Source of the DNA: Desulfonatronospira sp.
GTDB lineage: Bacteria > Desulfobacterota > Desulfovibrionia > Desulfovibrionales > Desulfonatronovibrionaceae
Assembly: GCA_003563255.1 (NCBI GenBank)
Contig: PWSL01000181.1
Location: forward strand, 1 to 12,725
DNA: 12,725 nucleotides
Direction of reading: 5' to 3'
The notes beneath the pieces were generated by a model. The model had not been told where the DNA came from. It was given only the letters and a program-made list of their open reading frames with translations, and searched no databases. How positions within the stretch are numbered: position 1 is the stretch's first letter; the number at the start of each line of letters is the position of its first letter. The translations under genes were made by a program, and so were the position numbers. Shown piece by piece: positions 1-12,725 of this stretch.

Positions 1-1089
1 AGAGTCATTATATCCTTTGAAAACATAAGCAGAACCTCCTTGGTGAAAATTTGGAGATCTGCTACCTGAAATTGTGAGCAAAATCAAAAAATCAAATTCC
101 ACAGTCAACGTCGAAGAGCCATATTTACAAATCAGGATTGGGCGATCAAAAACCCACGACATTTTGAATCAGGGAAATCATTTTTTATTGGTGATATTGA
201 AATTACGCCATATTTGATGGACCACTCTGCATTTGATGCTTATGCCTTTCTAATCAAAGCTGATGGAAAGTCTCTTTTTTACAGTGGTGACTTCAGAATA
301 CACGGCAGAAAAACAAAAGCATTTGGTTGGTTCAGCTACAATACTGAGCAAAATATTGATTATCTGCTTCTTGAAGGAACAACTGTCGGTCGAGTGAATA
401 AACCGTTCCCGACCGAAAGTGATATAGAAGAGGAATTTGTAAATGTTTTTAAAACGAGCAAAGGAATCAATTTAATTTATACATCAGGTCAAAACATTGA
501 CCGGCTCGTATCAATTTATAGAGCTTGCAAAAGAACGGGAAAGACTCTTGCTGTTGATTTTTATATTGCAAACATTCTTAAAGAGTTGTCAGATTTTGCT
601 ACAATTCCGTATCCATCTAAAAACTTTCCCGAAATAAAAGTGTTTTTCCCATATCGACTTTCTCGAATGATTAGCAGCAAAGGGAATGAAAAATTATTGT
701 ACCGTTTCAAGGACTATAAAATCACGAAAGAACAAATCGAATCGCAGTTTGATAAAACGGTAATGATTGTGCGACCAAGTATGTTGAAAGATCTGGAATA
801 TATAAAAAGATTAAAAGACGGCACATTTATCTATTCGATGTGGGATGGGTATAAAAAAGAAAAAACAACTAAAGAATTCATTGGTTTTCTTATTGGAAAA
901 GGAATGACTGAAAAAGCGATTCACACAAGTGGACATGCTGATCGAGATGCATTGAAAAGAATGGTTGAGGTTTTGAATCCGAAGGCTCTTGTTCCAATCC
1001 ATACATTTGAAGGAGATGAATATAAAAAGATATTCACAAGCACAAAAGTGATGCGGATAAACGATAATGAGGAGGTAACAATTGGCTAA
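1..1089 (+). pseudogene. MBL-fold / beta-CASP-like nuclease gene with a broken 5' end
   Basis: The continuous frame runs from 70 to the TAA at 1087-1089 and reads convincingly as an MBL protein from about 130. Visible metal-ligand and family motifs are DHS (His at 223-225), YSGD (Asp at 289-291), LLLEGT (Glu at 373-375), HTSGHAD (His at 922-924 and 934-936) and PIH (His at 1000-1002), as in RNA-processing metallo-beta-lactamase/beta-CASP hydrolases. The N-terminal HxHxDH motif is absent from this frame, which is stopped by TGA at 67-69. Plausible pieces of the missing part lie in other frames: SHY at 3-11 (frame 3), ENISRTSLVK around 25-54 (frame 1) and EIVSKIKKSNSTVN at 68-109 (frame 2). This suggests at least two frameshifts, either real decay or assembly error. 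The TTG/ATG at 214/217 sit inside the conserved motif and are unlikely to be true starts. Family is fairly sure; substrate (RNA or DNA) is unknown. Confidence 0.7.
1071..1076 (+). promoter_or_regulatory. Ribosome binding site deciding the TTG start of the HEPN gene
   Basis: GGAGGT lies inside the last codons of the MBL gene, five bases before TTG at 1082. It is the strongest SD nearby, and no ATG exists near the beginning of the 1082 frame. This supports an unusual TTG start and translational coupling of the two genes. Confidence 0.6.
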
Positions 1090-1516
1090 AACACATAACA
1101 AATCACAGAGGGATCAATTCTTTCGGGACAATAAAAAGTTGGTAGCGACTAACTCTTCGAATTTTGAACGCTGGCTTCTTCATCGAAATAGCCAGCATAG
1201 GTTATTTGGAGTTTATAAATCCGACTATCGTGCAGCAAGCCCACAACAAAAGACTGCTTATAAAAAGAGAGCAGTTAAAAAATTTCGGTCAAGATTTGAT
1301 CTGATATTTCAGCGTCGTAATGACTGCATTCACAACTGCGATAGGCCAAAAATCGCAGTTCAATCATCACAGCTACAGGATTCGTATGTTTGCAAGGTGA
1401 TTGAAGATTTAAAATTTTTAGTAATCAGATGCAACGAAGACTTTGTGGCAGAGTTTCCTATTTACCTAACCAATTTGGGCTTCAGTCCTTTAACAAGGAA
1501 TGGTGTAGGTGCATAG
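1082..1516 (+). CDS. Small HEPN-type protein (putative ribonuclease or toxin-like)
   Basis: This 144-residue basic protein contains RRNDCIHNCDRPK at residues 78-90. It includes an exact RNxxxH (R79, N80, H84), the signature of HEPN-fold RNases found in toxins, CRISPR effectors and abortive-infection proteins. The C-terminal end (a predicted helix 107-123, then YLTNLGFSPLTRNGV) fits, from memory, the tail of HEPN proteins of the RiboL-PSP/MAE_28990 kind. These usually have a longer N-terminus, so this copy may be shortened or a minimal version. TTG is chosen as start because of the GGAGGT five bases upstream; the gene overlaps the preceding MBL frame by eight bases. If the motif is active, the likely reaction is metal-independent RNA cleavage. 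No recognisable antitoxin (such as an MNT nucleotidyltransferase) lies next to it. Function is inferred from the motif only. Confidence 0.6.
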   Translation: MAKTHNKSQRDQFFRDNKKLVATNSSNFERWLLHRNSQHRLFGVYKSDYRAASPQQKTAYKKRAVKKFRSRFDLIFQRRNDCIHNCDRPKIAVQSSQLQDSYVCKVIEDLKFLVIRCNEDFVAEFPIYLTNLGFSPLTRNGVGA

Positions 1517-1529
1517 GGATTGTTTTTGC

Positions 1530-1658
1530 AACTAACCAGTCAGCTCAGGTGACATCCAGGGCCGACGGCGTTTTGATAAGCTTGTGGGGAATTGATCGTC
1601 AAACAATTTCAATCAGGTCTGTGGAAGCCCTGGCTGCTCCTGGCTTCCAACGTTATGT
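1530..1658 (+). other. attC-like recombination site 1 (after the HEPN gene)
   Basis: AACTAAC (1530-1536) begins 14 bases after the HEPN stop and GTTATGT (1652-1658) ends 18 bases before the next ATG. In between, 1542-1562 pairs with 1627-1645: 17 base pairs, two mismatches and two unpaired bases (T1545, A1552), both in the left half. A second weaker pairing, GTTTTGA (1570-1576) with TCAAAC (1599-1604), lies inside. Terminal AAC and GTT cores, a long imperfect stem and one-sided extra bases are the features by which integron attC sites are recognised. At 129 bases it is long but within the known range. It could instead be an unrelated imperfect palindrome. This also accounts for the 160 bases between the two genes. 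Confidence 0.45.
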
Positions 1659-1676
1659 GGAAAGGAAAAAAGACCA

Positions 1677-2699
1677 ATGCTTTATAAACTTGGATCAACC
1701 GACGGTAAGTTTGACAAACTCGAACCTGTAACATTCAAGGATTTCTCCAGTTTTGGTAATTTAGAAAAAGATTTGGAGGAGCTGATCGCATCAAGCATTT
1801 TAGATGTCCTATTTGAAGACGCCAGCTTAATGCCAATATTTCAAGAGCGTCAGTATCAAGCTGAAGCTGATATCTACGCACTAAACGAAAAAGGTGAACT
1901 CATTATTTTTGAGTTAAAGAGGGGTGCTGCCGGTGAAGGCGCAGTACATCAGGCATTGCGATATGCACAAGATGCCGGGCAATGGACTTTCTCAACTCTT
2001 CAGAATAAATACCAACAATATGCAGGAAACAATACCGATTTGCACTTGGCGCATAAAGAGGCATTCAATCTTGAACATTCATTAGATGCGAAAGAACTTA
2101 ACAAAAAACAACATCTGATAATAATAGGTAGTGCCGCTGATGATAGCCTCATTAGTGCTGTCGACTACTGGAAACACCAAGGCATCTCAATCGATTTCCT
2201 TCCTTATAGAATCTATGAAATCGATGGCAAAAAGTACTTCGAATTTTTTGCCTTGCCTTATGACAAGCACAAAAATCCAGGCGATGTAAAAGGTGTATTG
2301 TTTGATACCAATAGAAGCTGGGATGAGGAATCAATCTGGTATATGATGGAAAATAGTCGAGTGGCGGCATTTGGCGATGCAAAGCGGTTCGTCGAATATG
2401 TCTACCCTGGTGATATTGTGTTTTTTTCACACAAGTGGACAGGTCTTGTCGCAGCAGGGCGAGTTAAAAAAGGTGCCATAAAGTCACCGGATGACGAAAC
2501 GTTATATCGTGATGTGGAATTTATCACTCCAATTCCAAAGAAGGGACAAACGATTAACGCGATGCCGTTTGGGAAAGCCTCTGAAATCACTGGGAAGAGT
2601 TTTTTCTGGGCTCGAACCATCAAGGTGCCCTATCTTTCAAAGGATGAGGCTGAAAATTTGGCAAAAGAGTTGAAAACATACCTTGAGCAAAACACATAA
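1677..2699 (+). CDS. PD-(D/E)XK nuclease with C-terminal PUA/EVE-like domain
   Basis: This 340-residue protein appears to have two domains. Residues about 30-180 resemble a PD-(D/E)XK nuclease: acidic helix LEKDLEEL (29-36), AEADIYAL with D65, then E79-L-K81 at the end of a strand, and a QxxxY motif (Q92, Y96) as in RecB/NucS-type nucleases. Residues about 205-320 resemble the PUA superfamily (EVE/ASCH type): NRSWDEESIW, then YPGDIVFFSHKWTGLVAAGRV, a beta-rich core of the kind used to read modified bases. Linked to a nuclease, this suggests sensing and cutting modified DNA or RNA, as in type IV-like restriction; that is inference. The start ATG follows AAAGGA at 1661-1666. The TAA stop lies inside the ACATAAC box of the next attC-like site. 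Other possibilities are a DUF91-like DNA repair nuclease or an orphan Cas4-like protein. Confidence 0.65.
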   Translation: MLYKLGSTDGKFDKLEPVTFKDFSSFGNLEKDLEELIASSILDVLFEDASLMPIFQERQYQAEADIYALNEKGELIIFELKRGAAGEGAVHQALRYAQDAGQWTFSTLQNKYQQYAGNNTDLHLAHKEAFNLEHSLDAKELNKKQHLIIIGSAADDSLISAVDYWKHQGISIDFLPYRIYEIDGKKYFEFFALPYDKHKNPGDVKGVLFDTNRSWDEESIWYMMENSRVAAFGDAKRFVEYVYPGDIVFFSHKWTGLVAAGRVKKGAIKSPDDETLYRDVEFITPIPKKGQTINAMPFGKASEITGKSFFWARTIKVPYLSKDEAENLAKELKTYLEQNT

Positions 2700-2768
2700 C
2701 AACCGCATAAACTCGGACTGGCAATTCCGCTGCGCTCCATTGCCAGCCGGTTATGCGGAGCGTTGGCG
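2694..2768 (+). other. attC-like recombination site 2 (after the PD-(D/E)XK gene)
   Basis: ACATAAC (2694-2700) contains the stop codon of the upstream gene. The left half 2703-2725 folds onto 2739-2758: CCGCATAA with TTATGCGG, C plus CGG with CCGG, and CTGGCAAT with ATTGCCAG. That gives 20 base pairs around a 13-base loop. Three single bases stay unpaired, all in the left half (A2711, T2713, A2717). The right core GTTGGCG (2762-2768) matches GTT of GTTRRRY but not its last two bases. This is the best fold of the three sites and is typical in size (75 bases) for an attC. Confidence 0.55.
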
Positions 2769-2785
2769 CCGCCTCCGACGGCGCC

Positions 2786-2929
2786 AATGCGGAGTTGAGC
2801 CTGCGCTCTCGCCCGACTGGTTGACGCCGCCTCCGGCGGCTAGCCAACCAGTCGTTCGAGACCGATAGGTTCCTCGCCTTACGGAACTAAAGTTCCGACG
2901 GCGAGGAACCTACGGCTCAACTCCGCATT
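2786..2929. repeat. 144-base nested palindrome able to form a three-way junction
   Basis: The outer stem is a perfect 16-base inverted repeat (2786-2801 with 2914-2929). It encloses two perfect hairpin arms. Arm A pairs CGACTGGTTG (2814-2823) with 2845-2854 and has an inner GCCGCC/GGCGGC stem (2826-2831/2835-2840). Arm B pairs TAGGTTCCTCGCC (2866-2878) with 2900-2912 and has an inner CGGAACT/AGTTCCG stem (2882-2888/2891-2897). A further hairpin, TTGGCGCC/GGCGCCAA (2763-2770/2780-2787), touches its left edge. Such perfect nested pairing cannot be chance. There is no poly-T after it, so it is not a simple terminator. It could be a miniature hairpin element, a complex recombination site or a structured RNA leader of the TIR gene. 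Apart from these folds and the SD AGGGGG (2945-2950), I see nothing else between 2769 and 2957. Confidence 0.75.
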
Positions 2930-2957
2930 ATGTACCTAAACAACAGGGGGCTCTTAA

Positions 2958-4532
2958 ATGAAGCCTGTATTTGAGAAGCCAAAAATATTCATAAGCCATG
3001 GACACGCAGGCGAATCTCTAAATATTTTTAGGTCATTTCTGGAATCACTAGAGTTTGAGGTGATAGTTGTAATAGATGAGCCAAGTAGCGGTATGGCTCT
3101 TTCCCAAAAGGTCAAAGCATTTATTCAGGAAAGTGATTGCGTCTTAGTAATAGCGACACCAGATAACAAAGACGAAGCCACATCGACTTTCCAGCCAAGG
3201 GCGAACGTATCCCATGAAATTGGTTATGCTGAAGCGTTGGCAAAGCCGATAATTTATTTAAAGCATAATGACGTTAGTTTCGGTACAAATTATAGCGACA
3301 AAGTATGGATTGCATTTTCAGAAAAAGAGTATCATGACGCATACCAGCAGATTATTGAAGAAACAAAGAAGATAAAGCTTCTTTCAATCGTTGGAAAAAT
3401 AAATAAAGAAAGTGTTAAGTCTGAAATAATAGAGAAAAGTTTGAAATTGGTAGATATTCTCAATATAAAAGACTACACGATTAAATCCAACATATTATAC
3501 GAATTAAGTTTGGCTTTATATGAAAAGTCCGAAGTATTAACTGATGCAGAAACAAGAGATTTCTTTCACTTTTATCCCGAGTATACGCAAACCTGTGCTT
3601 ATGACGGATACAAAAACGAGAATCTTGATGGCGCAATAAGGCTTATGTCGTTTTCCCTTCAGCTAAATCCGTTGTCATCACGAAAAGTAGACTACATATC
3701 CATGCTGAGTGATGCCATATATATTGGTGAAGGGATGCTTGATGAAGACATTAAAAAAGAACTCAATGCCCTCCTAATGGAAGAAGCCAGAAATGGTAAT
3801 CTTTTTCGGAACGAAAAACATATCGAAAAAGTTGGCTTCTATCTGGACATTCTGAGCAGTGAAAATCGCCCCCTTTTCTGGGGTCACGCGGCTAATACAC
3901 CTGAAATATCTCCGGATCTTGTAACTTATTTGAAGCATTTGATAATCGGCTTGTTTGGGTGTCAGGGTGCAAAACTGCCCCAATCTAACAAGCCATCAGG
4001 ATTTCCCACCTTTTTGAGCACCAATCAATCTGACTGGTTGCTTGATGGTTTTCAGTTCAAGACACAACTTGAAGAGAAATTGGAGTCGGCCGTAGAAAAT
4101 GAAAAGAGACTGATCTTTAGATTTCTGTCAAAGCACGTGACAGATGAAGATTCAGATGGATGCATTTCAATAATAGCGAATGGAACAGAGGATCTGGCAG
4201 CAAGGACGATATGGGTTATTGGCGAGGCAGGTTTAATCATTAACGAAAAGATGGTTAAGACATTTGAAGATGTTTTCGATCGAAAGCATCATAGGCTGAT
4301 CGGAATTCTGGCAACAGCAATCGGAAAGCTTGGTACGAACCAGTTCAACGATCGGTTGATTAGTTCATTAATGGATTTCGAGTTTGATAGTAGAAGGCGG
4401 ATAGTGTGGTGTATGGGAAGACTCGCGAGCCCGGAATTTAAAGAAGTTTTAGAGAGTCTTAATATCGAAGAGAACAATTTTGCGCTTCAAGAAGAACTAT
4501 CATGTGCGTTGACAGAGCTATCCGAAAAATGA
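2958..4532 (+). CDS. TIR-like domain protein with HEAT-like helical C-terminus
   Basis: This is a 524-residue soluble protein. Residues about 8-122 look like the TIR-like nucleotide-binding family found in bacterial defence (CAP12/Pycsar-type TIR). KIFISHGH (9-16) is the first strand and loop, ESDCVLVIATPD (58-69) a middle strand, and QPRANVSHEIGYAEAL (79-94) the helix carrying the likely catalytic glutamate E87. PIIYLKHNDV follows. Such domains cleave NAD+ to deplete the cell during infection. Residues about 145-524 are mainly helical. The last 150 contain HEAT-like turns (IWVIGEAG 418-425, ILATAIGKLG 450-459, IVWCMGRLA 482-490), probably a sensing or oligomerising platform. ATG follows AGGGGG by seven bases. 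No cyclic-nucleotide synthase is adjacent, so the trigger is unknown. An attC-like site follows the stop. TIR assignment is fairly confident; NADase activity and a defence role are inferred. Confidence 0.72.
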   Translation: MKPVFEKPKIFISHGHAGESLNIFRSFLESLEFEVIVVIDEPSSGMALSQKVKAFIQESDCVLVIATPDNKDEATSTFQPRANVSHEIGYAEALAKPIIYLKHNDVSFGTNYSDKVWIAFSEKEYHDAYQQIIEETKKIKLLSIVGKINKESVKSEIIEKSLKLVDILNIKDYTIKSNILYELSLALYEKSEVLTDAETRDFFHFYPEYTQTCAYDGYKNENLDGAIRLMSFSLQLNPLSSRKVDYISMLSDAIYIGEGMLDEDIKKELNALLMEEARNGNLFRNEKHIEKVGFYLDILSSENRPLFWGHAANTPEISPDLVTYLKHLIIGLFGCQGAKLPQSNKPSGFPTFLSTNQSDWLLDGFQFKTQLEEKLESAVENEKRLIFRFLSKHVTDEDSDGCISIIANGTEDLAARTIWVIGEAGLIINEKMVKTFEDVFDRKHHRLIGILATAIGKLGTNQFNDRLISSLMDFEFDSRRRIVWCMGRLASPEFKEVLESLNIEENNFALQEELSCALTELSEK

Positions 4533-4537
4533 AAAAG

Positions 4538-4599
4538 ACATAACCTTGCTGGTTCAGGGGACGGCAAAAAGCGCGCCGCCCCTGACCAGCCCGTTGAGC
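4538..4599 (+). other. attC-like recombination site 3 (after the TIR gene)
   Basis: ACATAAC (4538-4544) begins six bases after the TIR stop. It is followed by a strong hairpin, 4548-4565 with 4575-4590: 16 base pairs with two unpaired bases (a T at 4553/4554 and A4561), both in the left half, and a 9-base loop. GTTGAGC (4593-4599) fits the GTTRRRY right core exactly. Total length is 62 bases, that of the classical 59-base element. No T run follows the hairpin, which argues against an intrinsic terminator. The hsdM SD begins 12 bases downstream. Confidence 0.55.
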
Positions 4600-4623: not shown

Positions 4624-6174
4624 GTGGCCACCAAGCATAATAACGGTGCCAACCTCGGCTTTGAAAACCAGATGTGGGCCGCAGCTGACAAGCTCCGGGG
4701 CCATATGGACGCCTCGGAGTACAAATACGTGGTCCTGGGGTTGATTTTCTTGAAGTACATCTCTGATTCCTTTCAGGCCAAATATAAGGAACTGGAAGCC
4801 TTAAGAGATACCGAATACACTGACCCCGAGGACCGGGACGAATATGCTGCAGCCAATACCTTCTGGGTTCCTCAGGAGGCCCGCTGGGAAAAGCTGCAGG
4901 CCAATGCCAAGCAGCCGACCATAGGTAAGTTGATTGATGATGCCATGGTGGCTATTGAAAAGGAAAACCCGGAGCTCAAGGGTGTTCTTCCCAAGGACTA
5001 TTCACGCCCGGCCCTGGACAAATATCGCTTGGGAGAATTGATTGATATTATCAGCAAGATCGGTCTTGGAGATGATGAGTCAAAATCAAGGGATATCCTG
5101 GGCAGGGTATATGAGTACTTTCTGGGCAAGTTTGCGGCCTCCGAAGGCAAGGCAGGGGGCGAATTCTACACGCCCAGGTGCGTGGTCAAACTGCTGGTCA
5201 ACATGATCGAGCCTTACAAAGGCAGGATCTTTGACCCTTGCTGTGGTTCAGGGGGCATGTTTGTCCAGAGCGAAAAATTTGTGGAGGAGCACGGGGGCAG
5301 ACTGGGCGATATTTCCATCTACGGCCAGGAATCAAACCCCTCCACCTGGAGGCTGGCCAAAATGAATCTTGCCATTCGGGGTATAGAGGCCAATCTTGGC
5401 GGCCAACCTGCTGACAGCTTCCACAACAATCTGCACAAGGACCTGCGTGCCGATTATATCCTGGCCAATCCGCCCTTTAACATGAGCGACTGGGGCGGCG
5501 AGCGGCTGCGGGAGGATGCCCGCTGGAAATATGGCGTTCCGCCGGCAAACAACGCCAATTACGCCTGGATACAGCATTTCATCCATCACCTGTCGCCTGC
5601 AGGAATCGCAGGCTTTGTAATGGCTAACGGCTCCATGTCCACAAACACTTCCAGCGAAGGAGAAATTCGGAAGAATATCATCGAAGACGACCTGGTGGAC
5701 TGCATGATTGCTTTGCCCGGCCAGCTTTTCTACACCACGCAGATCCCTGCCTGCCTGTGGTTTTTGTCCCGAAACAAGCAGAACGGCAAGTTCCAAGACA
5801 GGCGCAGGCAAACGCTGTTTATCGATGCCCGGAATATGGGCGGCATGATTGACCGGGTTCACAGAGACCTTTCTGATGAAGAAATACAAAAGATTGCCTC
5901 CACCTACCATGCCTGGCGCGGAGAAAAAGATGCAGGCGAATATAAGGATGTGCCGGGCTTTTGCAGAAGTGTTCCCACAGATGAAATTAAGGGACATGGC
6001 TATGTGTTGACCCCAGGCAGATATGTGGGCGCGGCCAAGATCGAAGACGACGGCATCCCATTCGAGGAAAAGATGGCTGAACTTTCAGCCACGCTCTACG
6101 ATCAGTTTGCCGAAGCGGACCGGCTCGAAGCCACCATCAAAAGGAATTTGGAGGTTTTGGGCTATGGGGAGTGA
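4624..6174 (+). CDS. hsdM: Type I restriction-modification DNA methyltransferase subunit
   Basis: HsdM transfers a methyl group from S-adenosylmethionine to adenine N6 in the bipartite site chosen by HsdS. It is part of both the M2S methylase and the R2M2S nuclease. The N-terminal helical domain (about 10-160) contains the family sequence [16 protein letters not shown]. The catalytic domain begins with GGEFYTPR (178-185), then SAM motif [11 protein letters not shown] (203-212) and catalytic motif IV NPPF (282-285) followed by NMSDW. At 516 residues it is normal full length, and no key motif is missing. The start is GTG with AAGGAGA upstream. The end overlaps hsdS by 11 bases, so the two are probably translationally coupled. 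Its base composition is clearly GC-richer than the genes to the left, so it likely has a separate origin. Confidence 0.96.
6150..6155 (+). promoter_or_regulatory. Ribosome binding site deciding the hsdS start
   Basis: GGAGGT lies eight bases before ATG at 6164. The frame is open further upstream (to about 6023), but that part only repeats hsdM coding sequence in another frame. The SD therefore fixes the start at 6164. Confidence 0.7.
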
Positions 6175-7468
6175 TTGGCCGGAAATCCCAGTAGCTGACG
6201 TATGTAATATTTTCCTTGGCGGCACTCCTAAAAGATCTGAGCCCACCTATTGGGGCGGGTCCATCAAATGGGCAAGTGCAAAGGATGTTGCTAATTGCCG
6301 AACTCGCTATCTGACGTTTACAGAGGAAACGATTACCCAAAAGGGGCTTGATAATTCAGCGGCTAAGCTCCTAGACAAAAATACTATTGTAATCACAGCA
6401 CGGGGGACAGTTGGGGCATTATGCATGCTTGGTGAGCCGATGTCGTTCAATCAGACATGTTATGGCCTTGTGGGTCTACCTGGGACAAGCTCTCATTATC
6501 TCTATTATGCGTTGAAGGCCGCGATAGCACAAATACGCTCGATCTCCTACGGCACTGTGTTTGACACAATTACCATGAAGTCATTCACAAACCTTATGGT
6601 ACCGCTGCCAAGTAGAGATCAACAGTTAGCCATTTCACACATCCTCGGCTCCCTGGACGACAAAATAGAGCTCAACCGCCGGATGAACAAGACCCTGGAA
6701 TCCATGGCCCGGGCCATATTCAAGTCATGGTTCGTGGATTTTGATCCGGTTCGCGCCAAGGCTGAGGGTCGGGATACAGGCCTGCCTGAGGAGATTGCAG
6801 AGCTTTTTCCCGATAGTTTTGAGGATTCGGAGCTGGGGGAGATTCCTGCTGGATGGGAATCACGTTCATTATATGAGTCTGCAAAATACATAAATGGTGC
6901 CGCATATCGCAACTCCCATTTTACTGATGAAGAAGGCGCATTGCCCGTTGTCAAAATCGCCGAACTGAAAAACGGGGTTACAGGCCAGACCAAGTTCACG
7001 AAGACAGAACTGGACGACAAATACAGGATCAGCGATGGTGAAATCTTGTTATCCTGGTCGGGTAATCCTGATACCTCTATTGGGACCTTTGTCTGGTGTG
7101 GAGGACCAGCCTGGTTGAACCAACACATATTCCGTGTTCTTCCATATCAGGCAATCGAAAAGCACTTTGTATTTTACCTGTTAAAATATCTGCGTCCTGT
7201 CTTTGCTGAAATAGCGAGGGATAAGCAGACCACTGGTCTCGGCCACTTTACTGTTCGCGATATGAAGCAGCTCATAGTCGTACATCCACCTAAAAAACTC
7301 CTTGTCACATTTAATGATTTCGTAGGACCTATTTTTGATCAATCTTATGGCAATCTTTTTGAATCAAACACTCTCGCTTCCCTCGGCTATACCCTCCTTC
7401 CCAGACTCATTTCCGGCGAACTGCGTGTCCCGGATGCCGAGAAGTTTGTTGAGGAGGCTGGGGTATGA
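6164..7468 (+). CDS. hsdS: Type I restriction-modification specificity subunit
   Basis: HsdS reads the split DNA target and anchors HsdM and HsdR. This 434-residue protein has the expected two-fold layout. Target recognition domain 1 is at about 1-150, including the typical IKWASAKDV and the closing [14 protein letters not shown]. The central conserved helix is at about 160-200 ([37 protein letters not shown]). A hinge, [10 protein letters not shown], follows at 223-232. Recognition domain 2 is at about 233-375, and the distal helix (385-420) ends with [12 protein letters not shown]. The two recognition domains differ in sequence, so the two half-sites should differ; the target itself cannot be read from sequence. 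The gene overlaps hsdM by 11 bases and the next gene by four (ATGA). Both domains look complete, with no sign of phase-variable tracts or duplicated segments. Confidence 0.94.
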
Positions 7469-9744
7469 GGATCACTTCCTTAAAGTCGTTAAGCGGGTGT
7501 GGGGTTTTTCATGATTTCTCCTGGCCATCTGACCTTCCTGGATTTGGCCGGTACAACATTATTTACGGCTGGAACGGAACGGGCAAAACGACTTTGAGCC
7601 GGATATTCAGGGCCTTGGAACAAAGAATAACGCCAGCCATAGGTAAAACTACCGTCTGCATTGACGAAACCGATTTCTCTTGTTCGGAGTTCCCCCAGGC
7701 GAGGATTCCTATCCGCGTTTTTAACCGGGATTTTGTGAACGAAAGTATCTTTCCCTTAGAAGGCGGCAATGTTCCGCCTATATATGTGATAGGGCCGGAA
7801 AGCGCAAATAAGCAGAAGGAAGTGGAAAAGCTGAAAGAGAAACGAGGTGATGCAGAATCTGATGTCAACTCCGCCAAAACGAAGCGCCAGGAAGCAGAAA
7901 GGGCTCTTGATCGCTACTCTCAGGATCGCGCGCGGGTAATAAAAGACACGTTACGGTCATCAGGCCAGAATCCCTACAACAATTATAACAAGTCCGATTT
8001 CCATGATAGAGCCTTGAAGATGCTTTCTGATAAAGATGCCGCTAACCATCTTTTAAGTGATACTGACCGGGAAAACCTTCTCGCCCAACACCAAGCAACT
8101 CTGAAGCCGAAGCTGTCGGAGTGTAAATATCAGATGCCGGATTTACAGGAACTGGCAAGTATCACGTCTAACCTCCTTGCAAAGACAGTGTTATCGGAGA
8201 CCATTGAATCGCTTAAAAATGATCACAATCTCAACGACTGGATCCGTCAAGGGCTTGGATTACACAAGGAAAGGCAAGCAGATATATGCTTATTTTGCGA
8301 GCAGCCACTACCGGAAGGCCGAGTTGCTGCACTGGAAGCGCACTTTAGTGCTGAATATGAACATTTTGTGAAAGCACTTAATGAGTATATTAGCAGCCTA
8401 AAGGCGATGCTGGAGAAGATATCCGAACTGAAGCTACCTAATAAGGCCGAACTTTACGATGACATGGCTGCTGAATATGAGTCTGCAGAGCAATCTCTCC
8501 AACAGGAATTTAACAAAATCCGTTCGTTCTTGGAGGCGCTTATTGACGCCTTTGAGAATAAGAAAACGAAAGTTTTTGACAAGCTCCACCTGGAGATAAC
8601 CATACCAGAAACCAAAGCGGAACTCCCTGAACGACTGAATGAAGTCATTCGCAAACACAATAAAGCCTCGGACGAATTTCAGGACCGCGTGTCCTCTGCC
8701 CGTGATAGACTTGCTTTGAATCTTATTGCAGCAGATATTGATGAATTCTCCCGGCTATGTGAAGAGGTCCAGCAAGCGTCAAACGAAAAAAAACAGGCAG
8801 ATAAAAAAGTGGAGGCACTTAACTCTAAAGTTACAGAGATTGAGAAGACAATAATTGAACATCGCCAACCTGCGGAAGAATTGAATAAAGACCTACGAAA
8901 ATATCTTGGTCATAATGAACTCCAGTTAAAGGTGGAGAAAACCGGATACAAGATTATAAGAAATGACGAACCCGCTGAAGATATAAGCGAGGGTGAAATT
9001 ACCGCTATTTCCTTGCTATATTTCTTAAAAACATTGCGGGACAGAAGTTTTGACTTAGAAAATGGAGTTGTTGTGCTCGATGATCCGGTTTCCAGCCTGG
9101 ACGCCAATGCTTTATATTATGCATTCGGGTTCATGAGAGAATATACAGCAGAAGCTGGACAACTTTTTATACTTACCCACAACTTCGCCTTCTTTCAACA
9201 GGTCCAGAATTGGTTCAATTATTTCAAGGGGCGAAAACAACCAAATACCAGCCAGAAGTCTACCCGTTTTTATATGACGGATTGCACAAATAAGGGCAAC
9301 AAACGCTGCTCCAAGCTAACTGCCCTTGACCCACTATTGGAACAATACAACTCTGAATATCATTATTTGTTTGCTCGCATTTATAGAAAAGTTCAGGATA
9401 ATTCTAAAAAAAACCTTGAAGAATATTATATATTCCCAAACATGGCCAGGCGCGTTTTGGAGACCTTCCTATCCTTTCGGTGCCCTCAAATTAAAGGAGG
9501 TCTTAGGAGCAAACTTCATGCAAATGAATTTGATCAATCCAAGAAAACACGGATTCTTCGCTTCGTACACACCCACTCCCATAGCGGTGCTATTGGAGAA
9601 CCGGAACATGACATGTCGATTTTAAGTGAAACAAATAGTGTGCTGAACGATTTACTTGATTTCATGAAATATCAAGATGAGAAACATTTTTTGGCAATGG
9701 AACAACTTGTAAAGAGTACTTATGGTGGTGAGGAGGGGGAATGA
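7465..9744 (+). CDS. rloC: RloC-like anticodon nuclease: AAA/ABC-type ATPase with zinc hook
   Basis: This 759-residue protein is built like an SMC/Rad50 ATPase joined to a tRNase. Walker A is [10 protein letters not shown] (35-44) and [10 protein letters not shown] (85-94) follows, as in PrrC/RloC proteins. A charged coiled coil (about 115-165 and 290-480) flanks CLFC (275-278), a CxxC zinc-hook candidate. The ABC signature is ISEGE (507-511), Walker [13 protein letters not shown] (535-546) and the H-loop THN (571-573). The C-terminal region carries R662-x3-E666, then a His cluster (H702, H704, H706). This resembles the Arg-Glu-His anticodon-nuclease triad of PrrC (R320, E324, H356). PrrC is about 400 residues and lacks the hook, so RloC fits better. 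RloC excises the wobble nucleotide of tRNA; here it should be held silent by the restriction complex and released when phage disables it. ATGA overlaps join it to hsdS and hsdR. Confidence 0.85.
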
Positions 9745-12725
9745 GTAATCCCGTTTTATCCGAAACCACCCTTGAACAAACCACCCTGGACTGGTTCTCC
9801 TCCCTTGGCTGGCAGACCGCCTTCGGCCCGGACATCAGCCCGGAAGGCCCGGCATGTGAGCGCGATTCCTATGATCAGGTTGTGCTTACAAAAAGACTCC
9901 GGGCTGTTTTAAAGGGCATCAATCCGACGATCCCGGAGGACTGCATTGAGGAGGCGATACGCAAAATCACCCGCTCGGAAACTCCGGGACTGATTGAAAG
10001 CAATCGCCGGTTGCATCGGATGCTTACCGACGGGGTGGATGTCGCATACATTAAAGAGGGCCGGGAGACTTATGACAAGGTCTGGCTCCTGGACCTGGAG
10101 GATCTGGAAAATAACGATTGGCTGGCTGTCAACCAGTTTACCGTGCTTCAAAATCGGAAAACCAGGCGGCCGGATATTGTTGTCTTTGTAAACGGCCTGC
10201 CTCTGGCTGTAATTGAGCTCAAAAATCCCGCTGATGAAAAGGCCACGCTTTACCATGCCTTCAATCAGATCCAGACCTATAAGGCGGACATCCCGGATTT
10301 GTTCAATTACAATGAACTGCTCATCATATCAGACGGACTCGAAGCCCGCGCCGGTACTTTAACAAGCGGCTGGGACCGGTTCATGCCCTGGAGAACCATT
10401 GATGGGAAAGAAGTGGCCCCCAGAGGTTCTGTGGAGCTGGAGGTTCTTCTCAAGGGGATTTTTAAAAAAAGCAGCTTTCTGGACCTGGCCTTAAATTTTA
10501 CGGTTTTTGATGACGACGGGATTTCCATAGCCAAAAAGGCGGCGGCCTATCACCAGTATCACGCGGTAAACAAGGCAATCGAGTGCACCCTGTCGGCCTG
10601 TGGCATAGAAACAGACCAGGGCCTGCTTTATGCCCGCTTCCCCAGACATGACGAGCACAACCCGTTTGCTGTGCATGAAGACCAGGTGGAGTACGGGCAG
10701 GGGTCACAACACTTCGGCGGCCGCCGCATAGGAGTGATCTGGCATACCCAGGGAAGCGGGAAAAGTCTTTTGATGGCCTTTTTTGCAGGAAAGGTCATCC
10801 GCCATCCGGCCATGCAGAACCCGACACTTGTCGTTATTACAGATCGCAATGACCTGGATGACCAACTTTTTGGGACCTTCTCTTCATGCCGGGATCTTAT
10901 CCGCCAGGTGCCGGTCCAGGCGGAGAACCGTGAACATCTGAAGGAACTGCTCAAGGTCCCGGCTGGCGGGGTGGTGTTCACCACTATTCAGAAATTTTTG
11001 CCGGAAAAAGGATATCAATATCCACAACTATCGTCACGCAGCAACATTGTTGTTATTGCCGATGAAGCCCACCGCAGCCAGTATGACTTTATAGACGGTT
11101 TTGCCAGGCATATGCACGACGCCCTGCCGAATGCGTCTTTTATAGGGTTTACGGGCACACCCATTGAGCGGGATGACCGCAGTACTCCGGCAGTGTTCGG
11201 AAATTATATTGATAAATATGATATTTTGCGGGCTGTAGAAGACGGGGCTACAGTCCCTATTTACTATGAGGGCCGGCTGGCCAGGATTGATCTCAGCGAA
11301 GAAGAAAGGCCCAAGATCGATCCCGAGTTTGAGGAGATTACAGAGGGGGAAGAAGAGTCAAAAAAACAGAGGCTTCGCACCAAGTGGGCCGCCCTGGAGG
11401 CCATGGTCGGGACCGAAAAACGCATAGCCCTGGTTGCAGAAGACTTGCTGAACCATTTTGAGGATCGTCTCCGGGTATTGGCGGGCAAAGCCATGGTAGT
11501 GTGCATGAGCCGCAGAATCTGCGTGGATATGTACAACGCTCTGATGAGGCTCAGGCCGCAGTGGCACAGTGAAGACGATGACAAAGGAGAAGTCAAAATT
11601 GTAATGTCAGGCTCGGCCTCCGATCAATCCGACTGGCAGCCCCACATCAGGAACAAGCAGCGGCGGGAGGCTTTGGCCAGAAGGTTCAAGGATCCGGAAG
11701 ATCCTCTGAAAATAGTCATTGTACGGGATATGTGGCTTACAGGATTTGACTGCCCGGCTCTGCATACAATGTATATCGACAAGCCCATGCGCGGACACGG
11801 TCTGATGCAGGCAATAGCAAGGGTGAACCGGGTATTCAAGGACAAGCCGGGGGGTCTGGTGGTGGACTATCTGGGCATAGCAGACCAGCTCAAGCAGGCC
11901 CTGAACGATTACACTGAAGCTGGGGGCAGAGGCGATGCGGCTATCCTTCAGGAGGAAGCGGTTAATATAATGCTGGAAAAATACCATGTGGTTGTTTCCA
12001 TGTTGCATGGTTTTGATTATTCCCCTTTCCTGGAGGAGTCATCCCAAAACAGGCTTTCCGGTATTGCCGCCGCCATGGAGCATATTCTGCAGCTGGAGGA
12101 CGGGAAAAGGCGTTTTTTGAGAGAGATGACAGCCTTATCAAAAGCCTTTGCCCTTGCAGTTCCTCATGATGAGGCCCTTAAAATCCGCGACAAGGTCGGT
12201 TTCTTCCAAGAGGTCCGTTCAGGTTTGGCAAAATCCACCGTAAATGGGGAGGGCAAGACTCCGGAGGAACTGGATTCCGCCATACGGCAGCTTGTGTCCC
12301 GGGCTGTGGCACCACAAGGCGTTGTAGACATATTTGCGGAAGCCGGTCTTAAAAAGCCGGATATTTCCATTCTCTCGGACGAATTCCTTTCGGAAGTAAA
12401 GCAGCTTCCGCACAGAAACCTTGCCGTGGAGATGCTGAACAAGCTCCTGAAAGATGAGATTAGGACCAAGTCCCAGAAAAATCTCGTCCAGGCCCGATCC
12501 TTTGCTGAAATGCTGGATAAAAGCATACGCAAGTATCAGAACAGGGCCATTGAAGCCGCCCAGGTGATAGAGGAATTGATAAAGCTGGCCCAGGAAATGC
12601 GCGAGGCTTATAAGCGCGGAGAAAATCTCGGCATGTCCGATGATGAAATAGCCTTCTACGACGCATTAGAGGTGAGCGACAGCGCGGTAAAGGTACTGGG
12701 GGATGAAACCTTGAAAACGATTGCC
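9741..12725 (+). CDS. hsdR: Type I restriction endonuclease / translocase subunit (3' end beyond window)
   Basis: HsdR cuts DNA after ATP-driven translocation when the HsdM-HsdS target is unmethylated. The frame from ATG 9741 is open to the window end: 995 residues and no stop. The N-terminal nuclease has the PD-ExK signature D145, E159-L-K161 (RRPDIVVF then AVIELKNP). The SF2 motor shows Walker A HTQGSGKS (335-342), [11 protein letters not shown], the DEAH box (D441-H444, [10 protein letters not shown]) and GFTGTP (469-474), followed by the second RecA-like domain ([22 protein letters not shown] segment) and a long helical C-terminus that binds HsdM/HsdS. Family members reach about 1000-1050 residues, so perhaps only the last few dozen are missing. 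The start codon overlaps the preceding stop (ATGA) with AGGAGG four bases upstream. All catalytic residues appear intact. Confidence 0.95.

Follow-up and report, generated by a model that had tools for sequence, protein, structure and literature searches.

The systems closest to the locus described here include CALIN, a named class of IntegronFinder (according to the available part of PMC9024848); chromosomal integrons of the sedentary type whose cassettes include defence genes (Darracq 2025 and Getz 2025, as summarised in the available part of PMC12409362); mobile integrons with phage-defence genes (Kieffer 2025, cited in the available parts of PMC12409362 and PMC12444791); and the EVE-HNH modification-dependent nucleases, such as VcaM4I (from the available part of PMC7897488). 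In this work, we analyzed a stretch of 12,725 bases, called the window, which is the entire contig C434 of a Desulfonatronospira genome (G000; 3.52 Mb, 532 contigs, 99.1% complete). With a probability of about 93%, positions 1-4599 of the window belong to an array of integron cassettes that has no integrase next to it (CALIN). The window resembles CALIN, as far as the available text of PMC9024848 describes them, in having at least two attC sites of the same orientation within 4 kb, single-gene cassettes and no adjoining integrase gene (intI). It differs in that its site 1 is a long, lineage-specific attC nearly missed by the general model and in that one junction has an ATT core.

Sites and cassettes of the array

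Two attC models were used: R1, consisting of 12 aligned attC from the arrays of genomes G007 and G054 and from the nuclease locus of Leucothrix pacifica, with the window excluded; and the wider R2, consisting of 33 matches, all outside the window, for which G000, G007 and G015 were the family genomes that supplied training sites. Folding of the bottom strand was compared with 200 shuffles and is given as a z score. From left to right, the array contains an insertion sequence (IS) end, truncated metallo-beta-lactamase (MBL) and HEPN frames, site 1, a nuclease-PUA gene with site 2, an insert lacking an open reading frame (ORF), a TIR gene with site 3, and the hsd operon. The sites and the cassettes between them are as follows.

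1530-1658, + strand: site 1, a putative long lineage-specific attC, recurring in genome G001
1653-2762, + strand: nuclease cassette, from crossover to crossover
1677-2699, + strand: NucS-like nuclease with a PUA/YTH-like C-terminal domain (PADLOC PDC-S11, E = 4.5e-24)
2694-2768, + strand: site 2, attC (R1 44.1 bits, E = 1.6e-9; R2 58.9 bits, E = 5.7e-13; fold z = -3.65)
2763-2927, + strand: ORF-less palindromic insert of 165 bp (ORF-less cassette or miniature inverted-repeat transposable element, MITE) with a 16-nt perfect inverted repeat
2842-2933, + strand: attC-like site with altered core ATT (R1 16.8 bits, E = 0.019; R2 22.2 bits, E = 0.001)
2928-4593, + strand: TIR cassette
2958-4532, + strand: TIR (CAP12-type) protein with a HEAT-like C-terminus (PF10137, E = 8.6e-15; C-terminal matches to alphaRep chains)
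4538-4599, + strand: site 3, attC with a long, nearly perfect stem (R2 26.3 bits, E = 9.5e-5; fold z = -3.50)

The assignment to CALIN is based on attC boxes and stems with single-base bulges (sites 2 and 3), on the same site types standing on different genes, and on complementary cassette ends. Three attC-like places had been proposed in the original prediction, and the boxes can be read directly at all three of them. At site 1, the R'' box AACTAAC (1530-1536) lies 13 nt after the HEPN stop codon and 18 nt separate the core GTTATGT (1652-1658) from the nuclease ATG (1677); at site 2, the nuclease stop TAA (2697-2699) falls within the R'' box ACATAAC (2694-2700) and the core is GTTGGCG (2762-2768); at site 3, ACATAAC (4538-4544) follows the TIR stop by 5 nt and the core GTTGAGC (4593-4599) precedes the hsdM GTG by 24 nt. 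The cores of sites 1 and 3 are the two that had been placed about 20 bases before the next start; after the core of site 2, 189 nt follow before the next long start (2958). ACATAAC has three copies on the + strand of the window (1093, 2694 and 4538), all of them shortly after or overlapping a stop codon, with 1.1 copies expected anywhere in the window from base composition. The earlier account listed neither the box at 1093, behind the MBL frame, nor the attC-like site 2842-2933. Among 259 frames of 250 codons or more in the loci compared, duplicates excluded, 8 have the shorter CATAAC at the stop (from 6 bases before to 13 after the stop end), namely the MBL, nuclease and TIR frames of the window, a single gene in the G007 integron and four homologues of the nuclease.

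The first bases of an integron cassette are expected to complement its own R'' box. In the window, this complementarity extends over 7/7 bases in the nuclease cassette (GTTATGT and ACATAAC) and over 6/7 bases in both the ORF-less insert and the TIR cassette, the bounds of the latter two having been set after viewing the sequence. The controls gave 6-7 of 7 bases in all seven G054 cassettes tested and likewise in all four tested in G001.

Of 13 R2 matches, the top four were site 2, site 3, 2842-2933 and site 1. In the background of 33 sources (270,268 bases, known arrays excluded), the top score outside the own genome was 15.7 bits, in locus L041 directly behind a nuclease homologue. Site 2 is a textbook attC. 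The proposed cassette array is upheld by a strong model match at site 2 and a moderate one at site 3, whereas site 1 depends on comparison and the array proved to be integrase-less. Likewise, the imperfect stems that had been described for all three places are confirmed by folding at sites 2 and 3, not at site 1. No Rfam model matched the window at gathering thresholds. A simple hairpin scan recovered sites 2 and 3 together with the known arrays, failed on site 1 and gave apparent false matches in L013, L028, L037 and L056. The pattern TAACAA..GCGTTRG had seven matches in the own genome (site 2, one inside the TIR gene and five in an unrelated repeat on four contigs) and was discarded as evidence, because a backward control also gives five. 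A repeated element, TAACAAnTAACAAATAACAGAnAACTGGGTTGCGGGC.., which is not an attC, was seen in the own genome on contigs C102, C138, C249 and C317 (L043-L047).

Related genomes, for which a comparison had been suggested, carry the same sites beside different genes and not as one fixed block. Site 2 recurs in G006 of the same genus (97% over 68 nt) behind a gene of 227 amino acids (aa) and in G008 of another genus (96%) behind a 272-aa gene (an arsenite methyltransferase by eye), and its arms (92-93%), with a different loop, follow a ThsB-like TIR gene in G001. Site 1 has a copy in G001, another species of the genus (contig C190, L075 1427-1557; 83% identity over 132 bases), with nearly identical arms and a diverged middle, between genes of 244 and 149 aa that are other than those of the window. 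Throughout this 1.9-kb stretch of G001, which holds the first gene whole and the second in part, the only clear matches to window DNA are site 1, the IS end (120 bases) and a fragment of the insert (54 bases). Site 1 is accordingly taken as a probable attC from this comparison, not from model or fold.

Outside the window, too, the nuclease gene has the look of a cassette, judging from 6 of 12 homologous loci in named genomes. In these six (L031, L033, L034, L035, L038 and L042), an R''-type box lies over the stop codon, and four of them (L033, L034, L038 and L042) also have a GTT core 25-27 bases before the nuclease start. With R1, attC were found on both sides of the gene in L034 (a training member). 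The model also matched upstream of the gene in L031 and gave a weak match downstream of it in L042 (17.9 bits).

Among plasmids, the region 2690-2960 matched one record, a Geoalkalibacter plasmid, over 32 nt. Separately, an attC arm of the window (2690-2749) is 84% identical to a stretch annotated as a TrlF-family ATPase in two E. coli plasmids. G055, of another family, has a counterpart of the 5' arm of site 1 (L076 5313-5360, - strand; 85% over 48 nt), which follows a gene that by eye encodes a MazF-like toxin.

Search for an integrase and alternative readings

Several results weigh against the reading of the locus as a cassette array. Site 1 has no R1 match and reaches 13.8 bits (E = 0.13) with R2, which also misses its G001 copy; its stem is unsupported by folding, because 40 of 200 shuffles fold equally well (z = -0.80). 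R1 scores site 3 weakly (11.3 bits, E = 0.53), and the training set of R2 includes three sites on contig C203 of the own genome and two that flank the Leucothrix nuclease. No box is present at the stop in 6 of the 12 nuclease loci, among them L041, which has a core 40 bases upstream. The TIR and HEPN genes were not seen as cassettes in other places, and relatives of the TIR protein were absent from 395 genomes of the phylum, apart from the window's own, and from plasmids and viral contigs. Finally, the integrase expected in the original prediction did not appear: the own genome has no intI over the cut-off of profile TIGR02249, the best of five weaker matches scoring 87.1 of 265 bits.

By the same profile, intI is over the cut-off in 2 of 18 family and 9 of 348 class genomes. 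Genomes of the genus were judged at E <= 1e-60, a threshold that truncated copies may escape in genomes other than the own one, and at this threshold none of the seven genus genomes has intI. In contrast, attC were found in at least six of these seven and, with R2, in at least 13 of 18 family genomes at E <= 1e-3 and at least 15 of 18 at 0.05. These genome-wide counts are lower bounds, because no more than 150 candidates were scored per genome and site 3 of the window goes unlisted. The genome G006 (97% complete, 5 contigs) holds four attC within 2.7 kb and no intI at the same threshold. Since attC persist in the genus with no intI found in its seven genomes, the locus is classified as CALIN.

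In the own genome, other attC were found on C203 (229-315; 40.1 bits with R1), C99 (7539-7613; R1 18.6 bits, E = 1.8 over the genome; R2 24.1 bits) and C459 (1310-1390; 43.8 bits with R2). Their cargo includes an ApeA-type HEPN gene and an HSDR_N-like nuclease (under the Pfam cut-off) on C203, and a PLD-like gene (under cut-off) and a second PDC-S11 nuclease on C99. A 123-aa recombinase fragment on C203 was considered as an intI remnant and rejected, as it matches Phage_int_SAM_4; a similar frame is present in L075 (by eye), and we presume the fragment to be an IS-linked integrase.

The fragmentation of the assembly bears on an alternative in which the integron is complete and the contig with its intI is missing or was not binned. 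The assembly comprises 532 contigs, the attC contigs C434, C203, C99 and C459 are short (12.7, 5.8, 7.9 and 3.2 kb), the attC of C203 and C99 lie no more than 330 bases from a contig end, and draft genomes inflate CALIN counts, according to the IntegronFinder authors in the available part of PMC9024848. Against it stands the absence of intI at E <= 1e-60 from all seven genus genomes, including the attC-bearing G006, and we regard this alternative as unlikely. An ordinary defence island, in which the hairpins at gene ends are terminator-like and their likeness to attC is coincidental, would agree with sites that sit behind genes and fold, with the poor fit of site 1 to the attC model and with the lack of intI. 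It is contradicted because sites 1 and 2 recur behind different genes in other genomes, and the attC model scores and the complementary cassette ends also speak against it, so that this explanation is highly improbable.

A further alternative concerns only the insert 2763-2927, which might be a MITE-like palindromic element landed in an attC junction, and not an ORF-less cassette. The perfect 16-nt inverted repeat and the extreme fold (2786-2929, z = -15.3) would suit such an element, as would the insert fragments in G001 (54 nt, 96%) and G055 (43 nt, 93%), the latter in a stretch without an R2 attC match. On the other hand, the ends of the insert coincide with attC crossover positions and are complementary at 6/7 bases, its attC-like site scores 22.2 bits, and no further copy exists in the own genome; we give the MITE somewhat less than even odds. 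No match to 2755-2940 was found in phages.

Under the cassette-array reading, the cassettes would have been captured by IntI, with the folded attC bottom strand as its substrate. The capturing integrase would since have been lost, be absent from the assembly, or act from elsewhere. A broader version, in which the whole genus exchanges cassettes by its own attC types, including the long type of site 1, but has no integrase itself, with a pool rich in defence genes and with movement in trans, appears improbable; the integrase acting in trans would then arrive on other elements or reside in genera nearby.

Cargo and flanks of the array

The nuclease scores 18.2 bits against NucS_C (E = 0.0025), under the cut-off of 24. 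Its residues D65, E79 and K81 are invariant in 21 sequences, and we take them to be the PD-(D/E)XK catalytic set. In the structure model (predicted local distance difference test, pLDDT, 59.9), the top Foldseek matches were YTH (E = 2.3e-3) and EndoMS (5.3e-3), and there was none at E <= 1e-3 with this low-confidence model. The likeliest role of the protein would be the cutting of DNA with modified bases. At E = 1e-3, it has 1091 homologues; the 120 listed are 76-97% identical, and some of them are in bacteria named Meiothermus, Nitrospira and Aeromonas. Two Caballeronia plasmid records carry it at 69.5%, and it was not found in viral contigs. In the TIR protein, E87, the conserved glutamate of the PF10137 domain, is invariant in 11 sequences, and the protein would consume nicotinamide adenine dinucleotide (NAD) on infection. 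Both the nuclease and the TIR cassette would be expressed from their own signals. The features on both sides of these cassettes are as follows.

1-120, no strand assigned: probable IS end, interrupting the MBL gene, 98% (117/120) identical to L075/L073 165-284 of G001
214-1089, + strand: MBL/beta-CASP-type gene with the N-terminus missing (RMMBL, E = 6.1e-6; in-frame stop upstream)
1082-1516, + strand: HEPN-like frame, 5'-truncated, 144 aa (211-251 aa in 8 of 9 relatives read)
1093-1099, + strand: ACATAAC box, 3 nt past the MBL stop
4624-12725, + strand: type I restriction-modification operon with hsdM, hsdS, an AAA_13 (PrrC-like) ATPase gene and hsdR cut by the contig end, past the last attC

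The array is partly degraded, as shown by the IS end at 1-120 and the 5'-truncated MBL and HEPN frames. Three genes had been described between the sites, and the nuclease and TIR genes stand, whereas the HEPN-like member, which has no Pfam match, is a truncated frame. The box at 1093-1099 is either what is left of the R'' of an attC since lost or a chance occurrence within the HEPN frame. In the segment 1082-1110, the end of the MBL gene meets the ACATAACAAA box and an internal part of the HEPN gene, possibly through a deletion between short matching stretches. In L075, an ISL3-like transposase frame (by eye) adjoins the shared 120-base IS end, beside the G001 array. The suggestion that the cargo is defence-like is sustained by family resemblance, from which a defence role may be proposed, for an array that is integrase-less and partly degraded. 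As had also been stated, the hsd operon lies at the right edge, starting at 4624. Its AAA_13 (PrrC/RloC-like) ATPase gene is located between hsdS and hsdR (7465-9744; PADLOC PDC-S06, E = 2e-256; PrrC, E = 7e-13).

Other arrays showed further features. In G001 (L075 2109-3757), two ThsB-like TIR genes (PADLOC ThsB, E = 1e-61 and 2e-8) with a 158-aa gene between them are flanked by two attC. The same methyltransferase-like gene (by eye) starts behind the C99 attC (L069 7539-7886) and behind the last G001 attC (L075 8475-11058), and the C99 and G001 arrays have a common right edge, differing from the hsd operon of the window. In the G007 integron (L012, about 14400-14830, - strand), an attC is interrupted by an apparent group II intron remnant (by eye).

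Comparison with known systems

Defence genes in integron cassettes are already in print. No paper combining gene cassettes, attC, the TIR domain and phage was found in the literature searched, which excludes most subscription journals and so gives no proof of absence. The locus adds a non-Vibrio lineage with defence-like genes as integron cassettes, and the nuclease-PUA family gains a cassette context in several named loci. The genus offers a testable case, in which attC arrays persist and differ between species with no integrase found. General attC models can nearly miss lineage-specific sites, and comparison reveals them.

Among the described systems, the EVE-HNH nucleases, as presented in the available part of PMC7897488, differ from the window nuclease, which is NucS-type and not HNH; in its low-confidence model, which had no Foldseek match within the threshold given above, the nuclease appears likewise joined to a PUA-superfamily-like domain (YTH and EndoMS being the best matches). 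The mobile integrons of Kieffer 2025, as far as the available citing texts describe them, have defence-like cassettes in common with the window, in which no intI or mobile element was identified save the IS end. Compared with the sedentary chromosomal integrons in the available part of PMC12409362, the window has no integrase, few cassettes and another lineage, and defence is here read from the genes themselves; what it shares with those integrons are small defence-like genes as cassettes.

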